DNA of 43,840 nucleotides, from IMG/VR virus record IMGVR_UViG_3300012923_000009, positions 1-43,840 of that record. One strand, written 5' to 3'. Position numbers and translations under genes: made by a program. Source of the stretch: a virus. Each line of letters begins with the position of its first letter. The first letter of the stretch is position 1. Below the pieces are notes generated by a model. That model made no database searches and had not been told where the DNA came from. It was given only the letters and a program-made list of their open reading frames with translations. Positions 1,295 through 43,840 of the stretch are shown one piece after another.

Positions 1295-2991
1295 GCTGCG
1301 ATCTCCTCTCGGATGGGAAGCGCGTCCGCGAGCGCGGCGCGATAGTTGACCTCCTGCACGGAGACGTCGCTCTCGAAGAGCGCCTGCTTCCGCGCAAGGT
1401 TCGTGAGCATCAGCCCCTCGAGCTCGGGCACGAACGGCACATGCACATGCACCGTCTCGGTCTGGCCGAACCGGTACGCACGACGGATCGCCTGATACAT
1501 CCGCTCGAAGCTGTCGTCGAAGCCGGAGAACACCATCGCCCGGGCGTGCTGCAAGTTCAGGCCGTAGCCGATCAGCGACGCCTTCGACACGAGCACCTCG
1601 GCACGGCCGCGGCGGAAGCTGTCGAGCGCGTCCGCGCGGGCGTCGTCGGTCATCGCCCCGTGCAGCGCGGCGACCTTGCGGAAGTTGCCGTCGCGGAGCA
1701 GCTCGACGATGATCTCCGACTCTTCGTCGAACACCGTCCAGACGATCGTCGGCCGGCCAGCTTCAACCTCCGCGGCGACGAGCTCCGCAACGAGCCGCGG
1801 CTTCCGCGACTCGACACGGGTCACCGTGCGGGCGTTCGAGGAGACGGCGACTCGCTCGGGTTCACCGTTGATGGCGGCAGCGCCCGACCCGGCAGTCTCA
1901 CCCACGGCCGCCGTCCCCTCCAACGCCTTCTCGTAGACGAAGCCCTTCGCGATCTGCGACAACTTCGACCGCTCACGCACACCCAACCGCTCATCGAACA
2001 AACCGCGGCCTTCGTGGGCGAGCAGCTCCTGCATCAGCGCCCGCTGCTCCTCCGTGATCTCGACGGTGTGCTCGTGGATCACCGGATCCGGCAGCGACGA
2101 CAGAATGTCCGCGAAGCCGTAATGCGACGGGTCACGGAGATAGATCGACCACGACGACATGAACCGGAAGAACGCCTCCCGGGCATGCGGCTTCACCGAC
2201 CACTGATTCGTCTTGTTGTCCCGCGTGAAGTACGTCCAGAGGATCTCGCCCTCGCTGCGCAGCTTCTCCAGGAACGCCGCCTGCGACGCGTACTCCATCG
2301 TGTCGTTCGGCGCCGGCGTCGCCGTGCAGCTGAGCTTGTACTCGATGCCCTTCGCCGAATGGATGACGTTCCACTTGATCGTGCCGCCGCCCGACTTCAG
2401 CAGCGACGACTCGTCGAGCACGAGGCCTGCGAGCTTCCGGAGCTCGGGCAACTCGCCCGGCACCATCAACGCGTACGTCGCGATCCCGATCCCCGGTCCG
2501 TCGACGGCACACCAATCCGTCAAAGCCGCCCGTGTCGTCAGCCGCTCAAGAGGATCCTCGTCCGGGTAGAAGCTCGCCCACTCATCGCACGTCTGCGCGA
2601 TCAGCTCATGCGTCGGCGAGAACACCAACACGCGCCCGCCGGTCAGGGCCTGCACGTGCCGGGCCCACTCCAAAAACATCAGCGTCTTGCCAAGGCCGGT
2701 GTCCGCCCAAATCGCGAACCGACGAGCCGCCAACGCCTGACCGACGATGAACGACTGATAGTCGAACAGATGCTCGACGAGAGGCTCGGCGGCGACGGCG
2801 TGAACCGCGAGCCCCTCGTCGAGCATCCCCGCGTACCGCGCGGCCGTCGACAACGTGTAGGTGTCCGTCTGCCAGTCGTACGAAAGTTCGCGCTCCGGCA
2901 GCTTCTTCGCCTTCAGGAACAGGTCGTAGGCGGCCAGGTCGAAGCGGTCGAACGTCACGACGGCCCGGCCGTTCTCGACGACGACCGTCAC
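1291..2991 (-). CDS. SNF2-like superfamily 2 DNA helicase/ATPase
   Basis: A 566-residue two-lobe ATPase. Motif I (Walker A) is ADTGLGKT at residues 96-103, motif II is DESS at 193-196 (SNF2/DEAD-like), and motif VI is QAIRRAYRFGQ at about 500-510, whose RxGQ ending is typical of SNF2 proteins. An N-terminal region of about 75 residues precedes the helicase core. Phages often carry such an ATPase with a VRR-NUC nuclease, which is present here at 40803-41087, so a role in recombination, repair or replication-fork processing is likely. Start GTG/ATG region overlaps the upstream gene by four bases. Substrate is not known. Confidence 0.88.
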   Translation of the reverse strand: MTVVVENGRAVVTFDRFDLAAYDLFLKAKKLPERELSYDWQTDTYTLSTAARYAGMLDEGLAVHAVAAEPLVEHLFDYQSFIVGQALAARRFAIWADTGLGKTLMFLEWARHVQALTGGRVLVFSPTHELIAQTCDEWASFYPDEDPLERLTTRAALTDWCAVDGPGIGIATYALMVPGELPELRKLAGLVLDESSLLKSGGGTIKWNVIHSAKGIEYKLSCTATPAPNDTMEYASQAAFLEKLRSEGEILWTYFTRDNKTNQWSVKPHAREAFFRFMSSWSIYLRDPSHYGFADILSSLPDPVIHEHTVEITEEQRALMQELLAHEGRGLFDERLGVRERSKLSQIAKGFVYEKALEGTAAVGETAGSGAAAINGEPERVAVSSNARTVTRVESRKPRLVAELVAAEVEAGRPTIVWTVFDEESEIIVELLRDGNFRKVAALHGAMTDDARADALDSFRRGRAEVLVSKASLIGYGLNLQHARAMVFSGFDDSFERMYQAIRRAYRFGQTETVHVHVPFVPELEGLMLTNLARKQALFESDVSVQEVNYRAALADALPIREEIAA

Positions 2992-3317
2992 GCAGCCGCC
3001 TCACGAGACGGCGGCGGCCCGTACTTCCGAACCGTCGCGATCATCGTGTCGCCGCCCGCGAGCGACCCGCGGATGATCTCCTCGAGCGTGCTCAGCGGAA
3101 GTCGACAGCAGAGAGGCCCGTACTCGCGCAACACCGCCGACAGCGCCTCACCGCGGCCACCCGACGCAGCAATGATCTCCTCGTCGTGGTTCAACGCCTG
3201 GTGGACGAGGCAGAGCGTCGCCGGCAGATAGCCCTCGGGCCAGCGAGCGCGGAAGTTCTTGAGGTGCCGGGCGCACCAAGTCGCGGTCGGCTCGACCGTG
3301 ATCATCGGTTCGGTCAC
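2988..3317 (-). CDS. Hypothetical protein (109 aa)
   Basis: The GTG start at 3317 is chosen because GGAGGT lies six bases upstream; a longer upstream form is less likely. The upstream small gene stops in the same GTGA overlap. The protein has a Cys/His pair near the N terminus (WCARH) and further Cys residues (TLCLVH, LCCRL), possibly metal-binding, but no recognisable domain. Confidence 0.65.
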   Translation of the reverse strand: MTEPMITVEPTATWCARHLKNFRARWPEGYLPATLCLVHQALNHDEEIIAASGGRGEALSAVLREYGPLCCRLPLSTLEEIIRGSLAGGDTMIATVRKYGPPPSREAAA

Positions 3318-3980: not shown

Positions 3981-4125
3981 CGCGGACGCCCTCCGCTCCA
4001 CTCGCCACGTTCGCGAGCCTCCCGTAGGTGCCGGGGGAGCTGTTACAAAGTCGTGGTCGAGGCTTGTCGCAGGTCGCGAGTTCGCGATCTCCCTGCACAG
4101 CCGACGCTTCGGGTTGTGACGTTAC

Positions 4126-4150
4126 GCGGGTTCGATTCCCGCCGCCTCCA
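4126..4150 (+). other. attP: Presumed attP core: 3' end of a tRNA-Ala/tmRNA-type gene
   Basis: A perfect T-arm (5-bp stem 4126-4130/4138-4142 around the seven-base loop ttcgatt) is followed by a seven-base acceptor strand cgcctcc and discriminator a. The acceptor strand would pair with ggggggcg-like 5' ends through the G3-U70 wobble that marks tRNA-Ala and tmRNA. No matching 5' half lies upstream, so this is not a complete tRNA; it fits the tRNA-end identity block used by phage integrases, and the integrase gene is about 530 bp away. The whole 3981-4286 gap otherwise holds no convincing gene; inverted and direct short repeats in it could be integrase arm sites. Confidence 0.78.
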
Positions 4151-4286
4151 TTCTCCCCGCAAATAGCGATTTCGGGCAGGAACGATTGCAGCAGAGCCGT
4201 GAGAACGCGGAAGAAGAACGGGAGCCACGCGCCGCAGCGCTGACAGTGGCTCGATCCGGCCTTCGTGACGTGCGGGTAGCAGCGAG

Positions 4287-4676
4287 TCACGCAGCGGCCT
4301 CAACGGGTGCGTAGACGGCTGGGCACTCCGGGCCGTGCATCCCGCACGGCGCCGTGATCTTCGTCCAGTCCTCCTGCTTACAGGCAGTGCAGGGGCAGTG
4401 GCGGCCGTGGGTAACCCGGGGCTGGCACAGGTCGACGACGTAGCGCACGGCCATCGCGGCGAGTTGGATCGCCTCAGCGCGAGCCGCGGCCGACTGGCCA
4501 GTGTCCGCCTTGACGTGCTCCCAAAGCTCCTCGAACTCCTCGCGGATGACCGAGTGACCTTCGTGGGGAGACGCCATCGCGGCGTGCGCCCGGCGAGCTG
4601 CGTCGAGCTCGCGCCCGACTTCCCGTAGCGTCCGCTCGGCGAGCGTGCTGTCTGCGATCTTGAGCTCGACGCGCAC
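4287..4676 (-). CDS. Hypothetical Cys-rich protein (129 aa)
   Basis: GTG start at 4676, six bases after the integrase stop. The N-terminal 85 residues are helical; the C-terminal part has a likely zinc site (HGRHCPCTACK followed by CGMHGPEC). Its position between integrase and attP is where excisionases are sometimes found, but it is larger than most and shows no clear winged-helix, so an Xis role is only a possibility. Confidence 0.65.
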   Translation of the reverse strand: MRVELKIADSTLAERTLREVGRELDAARRAHAAMASPHEGHSVIREEFEELWEHVKADTGQSAAARAEAIQLAAMAVRYVVDLCQPRVTHGRHCPCTACKQEDWTKITAPCGMHGPECPAVYAPVEAAA

Positions 4677-4682
4677 GAGCCC

Positions 4683-5759
4683 TCAGTCCTCGTCCGTGCC
4701 CAGGTTGTAGACCCGTGTGAGCGCCTCAGCGAGGTCACCGGTCTCGAGGTGCGAGTAGGCGTCGGTCGAGCTGATGTCAGCATGGCCGGCAAGTTGCTTC
4801 GCGACGGCGATCCCGGAGTCCCGGATGATGGCGGTGATCGATGTGTGGCGGCCACGGTGCATGTTCAGCCCGGCGGTCGTCCCTGCGGGCACGAGCTCGG
4901 CGGTCTCCAAGCAGCGGTACCACCAGCGGTGAACCGAGTTGCCGGCCAAGTGACGATCGTGGAAGCGGTTCGTGACCCAGGCGTAGCCCTGCTGCTTGCC
5001 AGTGCCGAGCTCGAGGATCTCCGTCGCGTCGTCCAGGTCGACCTTCCGCCTTCGCGAGTCGCGCCGGTAGAGGAGATATGAGTCGGGGCCGAGACCTTGA
5101 GCCTGCAGCGCGAGCAGCTTCGCCCAGAACACCCGATCGGGGAGCGGCAGCGTGTGAACCCGGCCGCCCTTGGTGTGCACAGTGAGGATCCGGCGGTCCC
5201 AGTCGAAATGCTTCATCTGGACGTTCGCGACTCCGCCGCGGCGCATCCCGTACATGCAGATCAACATCAGCGCGAGCAAGTCGGCCTCGTACGGGTTCGC
5301 GGCGAGCACCCGTTCGATCAGCGATTCGGTCAGCAGTTCCTTCTCGGTGTCCCGAACCTTCGTCCGTGCGATCGCCCGGGCCGGGTTGCCGTGGATACCC
5401 CTGCCTTCACGGATCGCCCACTCGAAGAAGTCGATGTAGGTGGAGCGAACCTTGTTCTTCGTCCTTGGCGCCGCGGTGCCCCAGAAGAAGTCGACCGCCT
5501 CACGGATCCGTTCGATGCCGACCGGAGGGGAGAAGTCGGAAAGCTCGAGATCGGCGAAATGGACGCACAGGTTCCGAAGGTGTGCCTCGTAATCGCGGAT
5601 CGTGCTATCCGTTGCGCCCCACTCATTCCGCTTCCAGCGGATGTAACGCGCGACCTCGAGGCCGAGTGGGGTCGCTCTATACGAGCGATCCTTCACGGCG
5701 TCGCGCATCATCCTTGCCGCGGCGGCGAGGGTCAAGTCGGGACTGGCCATCACGGTCAC
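4683..5759 (-). CDS. int: Tyrosine recombinase, phage integrase
   Basis: A 358-residue integrase that would join attP to the host attB. The N-terminal SAM-like core-binding domain spans about residues 35-130. The catalytic residues are all visible: Arg in GMRRGG (173/174), Lys197 in HTKGG, His301 and Arg304 in HRGRHT, His326 in LAGHAD, and nucleophile Tyr335 in TDAYSHL. No large N-terminal arm-binding domain is evident beyond 35 residues. Start is GTG at 5759 in a GTGA overlap with the upstream gene, so it is the last but one gene of the early leftward series. The tRNA-like attP is immediately downstream. Confidence 0.95.
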   Translation of the reverse strand: MTVMASPDLTLAAAARMMRDAVKDRSYRATPLGLEVARYIRWKRNEWGATDSTIRDYEAHLRNLCVHFADLELSDFSPPVGIERIREAVDFFWGTAAPRTKNKVRSTYIDFFEWAIREGRGIHGNPARAIARTKVRDTEKELLTESLIERVLAANPYEADLLALMLICMYGMRRGGVANVQMKHFDWDRRILTVHTKGGRVHTLPLPDRVFWAKLLALQAQGLGPDSYLLYRRDSRRRKVDLDDATEILELGTGKQQGYAWVTNRFHDRHLAGNSVHRWWYRCLETAELVPAGTTAGLNMHRGRHTSITAIIRDSGIAVAKQLAGHADISSTDAYSHLETGDLAEALTRVYNLGTDED

Positions 5760-13305: not shown

Positions 13306-14331
13306 GTGACCAGGCTCGGCCACGTGAAAGCGCTCGACGGGATCCGCGGCATCGCGATCGTCTCCGTCGTCGGGTTCCATCTCTTCAACTGGCCGCACGG
13401 CGGACAGTTCGGCGTCGACTTGTTCTTCGTCCTCTCCGGCTTCCTGATCACGACGCTGCTCCTCGAGGAGCACGAGCGGCACGGGCGCATCGGTCTGCGA
13501 GCGTTCTATGTGCGTCGTGCGCGACGGCTGCTGCCAGCGCTCGGTGTGTTGCTGATCGCGATCGCGGCGATCGGCGCGCTGGTCTACCCGACCAGGCGGC
13601 TCGTTGAGATCCTCGCCGCGAGCGCGTTCTACGCTGCGAACTTCGTCCGAGGCTTCGCCACCTACGACGTCTTCTGGGCGAGCCCCGCCGACCACCTCTG
13701 GTCGCTCGCCCAGGAGGAGCAGTTCTACTTGCTGTGGCCGCCACTGCTGATCGTGCTGCTTCACCGCACAACGGTGAAGAGGATCCTGACCGGCACGCTC
13801 GCGCTCTTCGTCGCCCTATGCGTCTACCGGTGGGCGCTCGCCACCGGCGGCGCACGGTTCCAGCGCATCTACTTCGCACCTGACGTCCACGCCGACGGAC
13901 TCGTGATCGGCTGCGCGGCTGCGTTCGCGCGCGCCCACGGGATCCGCCTACCGGCCGGGACCGGGTGGGTGGGACTCGTCGTCTTCACGGCCGCGGCGTT
14001 GGCGGCGACTGAGTCAATCGACACCCAGGTCTACGTGCTCCCAATCGTCGAACTCGGAGCCGCGGCGCTCGTGCTGCACGCCGCCAATCCGGGGCTGCTT
14101 TCACGGTGCCTATCGCTGAGACCGCTCCCGTGGCTCGGTGCGATCTCGTACAGCGTCTACCTGTGGCATCAGATGGCCGGCTGGTTCGTCGGCTGGAAAC
14201 ACCCGTGGTACGCGCTCGCGGCGACAATGATCCTCAGTATCGGCTCGTACTACCTCGTCGAGCGTCCGTTCAGAAGACGCAACACGGTGAAGGCAAAGCC
14301 TCTCCCGGCGTTGGCTCCCGCTGAGGCGTGA
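13306..14331 (+). CDS. Integral-membrane acyltransferase (acyltransferase-3/OafA family), lysogenic-conversion candidate
   Basis: A 341-residue protein of about ten membrane spans. The family signature is present: LDGIRGIAI near the start, VGFHLF with the conserved His23, FGVDLFFVLSGF at about 35-46, FYVRRARRLLP at 67-77 and a terminal VERPFRR. Such enzymes transfer acetyl or other acyl groups to cell-surface glycans, as in phage-driven serotype conversion. It lies alone on the plus strand between the endolysin and a fibre gene, with only 35 bp before it; its stop abuts the convergent fibre stop (TGATCA). No clear promoter is seen, so it may lie inside the endolysin gene. Confidence 0.88.
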   Translation: MTRLGHVKALDGIRGIAIVSVVGFHLFNWPHGGQFGVDLFFVLSGFLITTLLLEEHERHGRIGLRAFYVRRARRLLPALGVLLIAIAAIGALVYPTRRLVEILAASAFYAANFVRGFATYDVFWASPADHLWSLAQEEQFYLLWPPLLIVLLHRTTVKRILTGTLALFVALCVYRWALATGGARFQRIYFAPDVHADGLVIGCAAAFARAHGIRLPAGTGWVGLVVFTAAALAATESIDTQVYVLPIVELGAAALVLHAANPGLLSRCLSLRPLPWLGAISYSVYLWHQMAGWFVGWKHPWYALAATMILSIGSYYLVERPFRRRNTVKAKPLPALAPAEA

Positions 14332-43665: not shown

Positions 43666-43840
43666 GCCGCAGCCTCGGTCACGGCGTGAATGTCGGCGCG
43701 GGCCGCGTCAAGCGTCAGCTGGTTGTCGTCACGGCCGCCGTCCAACGCCATCTGCGCGTTCTTCACCGCGGAGGCGTGGTAGCTCTCCTTCAACTCGAAC
43801 CCGACGACACGCCGCGGCGCACCCACCGCCAGGCCAGTCG
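43662..43840 (-). CDS. Site-specific DNA methyltransferase, C-terminal 56 residues (rest at 1-803)
   Basis: Continues the methylase from position 1, after removing the 10-bp repeat. Codons 268-323 encode LAVGAPRRVVGFELKES and a helical end, with motif X-like GFELKESYHASAVKNAQ (SAM pocket). Stop TGA overlaps the C5 methyltransferase ATG at 43665. Adjacent C5 and amino methyltransferases form one coupled operon. Confidence 0.85.
   Translation of the reverse strand, partial: TGLAVGAPRRVVGFELKESYHASAVKNAQMALDGGRDDNQLTLDAARADIHAVTEAAA

Follow-up and report, generated by a model that had tools for sequence, protein, structure and literature searches.

Introduction

Tyrosine integrases that enter tRNA or tmRNA genes restore the gene from the copy carried by the element (PMC4383910), and a crossover in the T-loop or T-stem is a known subsite (PMC4383910, PMC3203893). 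Among phages, the closest described system is that of the cluster K1 mycobacteriophages Adephagia, CrimD, Angelica and Anaya, which integrate at tmRNA through a 24-bp core equal to the 3' terminus of that host gene (PMC3203893). In these phages a tyrosine integrase gene is adjacent to the core, repeats surround it, and strand exchange has been placed at the T-stem. The K1 arm sites are 11-bp repeats in two pairs of opposite orientation, and are thought to be read by the N-terminal domain of the integrase (PMC3203893). In surveyed genomic islands, insertion divides the target gene, which is made whole again by a 3' fragment on the island, and the displaced fragment is found at the far end; tmRNA is the most enriched target. 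A third point of comparison is the Brujita integrase (PDB 5vfz), which has core-binding and catalytic domains only (PMC8138268); phage integrases of this simple kind are in the minority, with 27 versus 410 in one survey (PMC8138268).

Here we analyse a viral DNA stretch of 43,840 nucleotides (IMG/VR record IMGVR_UViG_3300012923_000009), referred to as the window. We are highly confident that the temperate tailed phage represented here, probably from soil actinobacteria, has its attP core at positions 4125-4150, and that its integrase (4683-5759, minus strand) would recombine this core with the 3' end of the host ssrA gene and restore that gene. This conclusion is drawn from three elements: a tmRNA-end block that is unique in the window, its co-inheritance with one integrase family, and integrated relatives in which tmRNA is intact and both attL and attR are present. 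The features of the locus are collected in Table 1.

Table 1. Features of the attachment region, in window coordinates
Feature	Position	Strand	Evidence or remark
Left direct-repeat copy CCCTGCACAGCCGACGCTTCGGGTTGTGACG, candidate accessory/arm site	4091..4121	+	Family-wide identity peak at shift 63
attP core, copy of the tmRNA 3' end	4125..4150	+	Invariant in 13 attachment sites; 103/118 exact genomic matches listed are tmRNA
T-loop TTCGATT between inverted T-stem GCGGG/CCCGC; probable 7-bp overlap region	4131..4137	+	Position and symmetry; host identity starts at the 5' T-stem strand
Right direct-repeat copy CCCCGCAAATAGCGATTTCGGGCAGGAACG	4155..4184	+	Motif CCC[CT]GC[AT]AAT[AC]GCG
Small ORF, 129 aa, phrog_25385 (unknown function)	4287..4676	-	Between integrase and attP; 81% identity in L238
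Tyrosine integrase, 358 aa	4683..5759	-	PF00589, E 2.6e-12; phrog_1 integrase

Results and discussion

The block matches the 3' end of tmRNA genes

An earlier sequence-only reading had interpreted 4126-4150 as an attP bearing the T-arm and acceptor strand of a tRNA-Ala or tmRNA gene without its 5' half; it had noted a tyrosine integrase alongside and had assumed an actinobacterial setting. The 25-mer is present on the plus strand as a single exact copy in the window, and zero occurrences with up to three mismatches are expected by chance (dinucleotide shuffles). The layout is as described: T-stem GCGGG, T-loop TTCGATT, T-stem CCCGC, acceptor strand CGCCTCC and discriminator A follow one another, and CCA is not encoded after the discriminator. 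ARAGORN called no tRNA or tmRNA in the window and Rfam profiles gave no match there at gathering cut-offs; for this reason a complete gene at the locus was rejected and the 5' half is considered missing from the window, where no further piece of tmRNA was found either. The extent of the block was slightly underestimated, since A4124 also matches host tmRNA and the common stretch covers 4124/4125-4150. The segment ACGCGGGTTCGATTCCCGCCGCCTCCA (4124-4150) thus comprises the T-arm, the acceptor 3' strand and discriminator A without a 5' half, and the length of the phage-borne copy is that of the terminal 26-27 bases of the host tmRNA gene. The announced G3-U70 signature was borne out with the help of contig L256, whose intact tmRNA ends in the same block: its 5' end GGGGGCG pairs with CGCCTCC, which has T at position 70. 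The spurious reverse-strand peptides GGGGNRTRV and RRRESNPR, taken in that reading as a hint of tRNA-like sequence, are also present in the window.

To which gene the block belongs was examined by an exact-match scan of bacterial genomes, followed by classification of the matched loci with ARAGORN. The 118 exact matches listed, which are a sample, comprised 99 tmRNA and 4 permuted tmRNA genes (103 in all), 15 uncalled loci and no tRNA. A tRNA 3' end, in particular that of tRNA-Ala, is therefore scarcely tenable as source and integration site of this phage: the G3-U70 pair and the T-arm would suit tRNA-Ala as well as tmRNA, and L261, a distant integrase relative, does use tRNA-Cys with its own T-arm copy, but tRNA accounts for 0/118 of the listed matches against 103/118 for tmRNA, and the integrated relatives that bear this block are located at tmRNA. 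The tRNA-Ala half of the earlier proposal was rejected on the same count, while its tmRNA half gained from the intact tmRNA genes found beside integrase relatives (see below). Judged by these sequence matches, the block stems from tmRNA (ssrA), of which it is the 3' end, and not from tRNA-Ala. The block does occur at actinobacterial tmRNA ends; among the matches listed, the genomes with the exact block are spread over many phyla, so that the block alone names no host.

The core is inherited with the integrase

A protein search for integrase relatives in viral contigs and an independent DNA scan for the block picked the same contigs. The exact block was present in 7/7 of the viral integrase relatives with enough sequence past the gene, a count from which L245 was left out because its contig ends about 0.3 kb past the integrase gene. 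When 13 attachment sites were aligned, exactly 26 columns (4125-4150) were invariant and divergence was immediate on both sides, a pattern to be expected where a host gene constrains the core. One viral contig, L239, starts in host tmRNA and passes into phage DNA at the block, and thus represents attL.

In one further contig, L063, the tmRNA called by ARAGORN at 2718-3059 was considered as an integrated attL and rejected, since the sequence to the left of the core in this contig matches the phage-type left flank of L241. This complete-tmRNA call, with an attP flank as its left part, is probably a false positive of relevance for provirus annotation.

The window is most likely a complete phage genome

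The window encodes a large terminase, portal, scaffold, capsid, tape measure, endolysin-like and replication proteins as well as tail genes, and both flanks of attP are phage-like. Positions 1-10 and 43831-43840 are identical (AGGCCAGTCG, 10 bases), joining the ends continues the reading frame of a DNA methyltransferase, and L238, the closest relative, holds the genes of both window ends in one piece, syntenic across the junction. On these grounds the window most likely represents an entire genome of about 43,830 bp, either circular or circularly permuted, whose attP is intact, rather than a prophage edge.

These observations also bear on whether the block might be a mere remnant, left by a decayed prophage edge or a broken phage-borne tmRNA, instead of a working attP. 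Phages can carry tmRNA genes or fragments, and many of the viral contigs matching the block hold complete tmRNA genes, although often as host flank. We nevertheless regard a remnant as very improbable: the window contains no other tmRNA pieces, all catalytic residues of the integrase are kept, independent phages have this core next to the integrase as well, again between flanks of phage type, and the genome is seemingly circular and equipped with terminase, portal, capsid and tail genes.

The window also encodes, at 13306-14331 (plus strand), an acyltransferase resembling O-antigen acetylases (phrog_6705, PF01757), possibly a lysogenic conversion gene that modifies the host surface.

Integrated relatives point to the host group

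In 399 genomes from the class of an actinobacterial MAG, integrase relatives were detected at six loci in five genomes, and all five belong to a single actinobacterial order (Actinomycetota) related to Thermoleophilia. The relatives listed for one of these genomes, G093, include a Thermoleophilia MAG, G004 (from L139). At 5/6 loci the matched integrase region ends less than 100 bp from an intact tmRNA that ends in the block. The core has an exact duplicate in G093 (5,517 bp away), in G236 (3,846 bp) and in G011 (about 42 kb); in G093 and G236 the intact tmRNA is at attL and the displaced fragment at attR, so that the attL/attR pairs which the sequence-only reading had proposed to look for do exist in relatives. 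In G311, sequence homologous to the G093 chromosome is present from 84 bp past attR onwards and stays out of the island; tmRNA was not found in the G311 assembly. No relative yielded a clean empty ssrA site beside the same flank; a search by means of the host flank of G236 gave no match in relatives. No lysogen of this exact phage was found among the 399 genomes, the closest chromosomal integrase being 43% identical.

Two of the tmRNA-associated loci have features of their own. The 5.5-kb island in G093 (L262, G093:C1, 9913-15454) carries an HTH gene and an additional methionyl-tRNA synthetase, which shares 43% identity with its chromosomal counterpart. In G011 (L270-L272, G011:C10) the core copies are at 1149 and 43190, 42 kb apart, and the far copy is followed by another attP-like flank, which suggests tandem elements in one ssrA site.

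The sixth chromosomal locus is at tRNA-Cys, not tmRNA, with a 24/25-base copy, which suggests that the integrase family can switch targets while the T-arm subsite is kept. At L282 (G186:C234, 8063-13247), where an integrase relative sits in tRNA-Cys and the 24/25-base duplicate is 5.2 kb off, the right flank has CCCGCAAATAGCG in common with the window.

The distribution of integrase relatives suggests that the host belongs to an actinobacterial order related to Thermoleophilia. The terminase and portal DNA resembles that of actinobacteriophages of Corynebacterium, Mycobacterium and Arthrobacter (about 65-70%), and these matches are consistent with an actinobacterial host. The actinobacterial setting proposed earlier thus gains support from the integrase relatives, but not from the block itself.

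Proposed mechanism of integration

In the mechanism that we propose, the integrase would recombine the attP core with its counterpart at the 3' end of host ssrA. Strand exchange would most likely take place in the T-loop, between the two T-stem half-sites; a position in or near the T-loop is suggested by the fact that host identity begins at the 5' T-stem strand. The phage copy would then replace the displaced gene end, yielding an intact host tmRNA at attL, and the original 3' fragment would mark attR, the far prophage end. Both the crossover position and the activity of this integrase are what we infer from sequence comparison. From the surveyed islands, which share this splitting and restoration of the target, the window phage would differ in host group and integrase subgroup only.

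The integrase and the repeats around the core

The adjacent tyrosine integrase of the sequence-only reading was confirmed. Its gene ends 532 bp from the attP core, the catalytic set R-K-H-R-H/W-Y of tyrosine recombinases is present, and the residues R173, K197, H301, R304, H326 and Y335 are invariant across 19 integrase relatives. The small ORF in the intervening stretch is also carried by L238. The attP-integrase region had no DNA match to described phages, and the only described phages matched in the integrase search were Sneeze, Rabbs and RitVan, at about 24%; K1 phages did not come up in it. Whereas attP lies on the 5' side of the integrase gene in K1, it lies past the 3' end of the gene in the window phage.

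In a profile alignment with lambda Int, about 44 integrase residues precede the position equivalent to lambda residue 89, and the AlphaFold2 model (pLDDT 87.7) has a single N-terminal helix; neither revealed a lambda-type N-terminal arm-binding domain. By model and profile alignment, the protein looks like a simple tyrosine recombinase devoid of an arm domain. It matched the Brujita integrase in one profile and one fold (Foldseek) comparison, in which XerC/XerD-like proteins and lambda Int core domains score as well as or better than 5vfz.

The core is bracketed by direct repeats at a spacing of 63-64 bp in most relatives. Judged from the window alone the repeat is weak (16/36 identical), and a clear signal is seen family-wide only, where identity at shift 63 reaches 45% against a mean of 25% and at most 40% in 300 shuffles, in a set that includes related sequences. 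The motif of the right copy was found only directly after the core in 2.33 Mb of loci, and a near-identical right-repeat stretch follows tRNA-Cys beside a relative integrase. A stem-loop occurs right after the core in some relatives; no terminator of the kind reported for K1 phages was detected at this position in the window (folding z -1.2).

One might expect the integrase to contact these repeats through an arm-binding domain, as at the arm sites of lambda, given that they bracket the core at constant spacing in most relatives and that arm-type sites are also predicted around the cores of K1 phages and L5. We find this rather unlikely, since the window repeat is weak by itself and the integrase, with so few residues ahead of the lambda core equivalent and a lone helix in its model, seems to lack the fold that would read them. 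In comparison with K1, the repeats of the window phage are longer (about 30 bp), direct and 63 bp apart, and the N-terminal domain thought to read the K1 sites appears to be absent. It is tempting to speculate, though we hold this only tentatively, that the integrase represents an undescribed subgroup of simple, arm-domain-less recombinases, found in phages and islands of deep-branching actinobacteria. Its core would be the T-arm of tmRNA (of tRNA-Cys in one relative), and the direct repeats, six helical turns apart, would be accessory sites read by another protein or by the short N-terminal helix, so that direction would be controlled without an arm-binding domain.

Conclusion

Integration that restores ssrA is a well-known strategy; in the present case it would operate in a phage and host group that have been little studied. 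An uncultured phage group without a close integrase relative among described phages is now tied to a host gene, and also to a probable host order in the Thermoleophilia-related actinobacteria. With no apparent arm-binding domain and with repeats that keep a fixed spacing, the system poses the question of how the direction of recombination is controlled, and the pair of attP and integrase may serve as an integration tool for such hosts.
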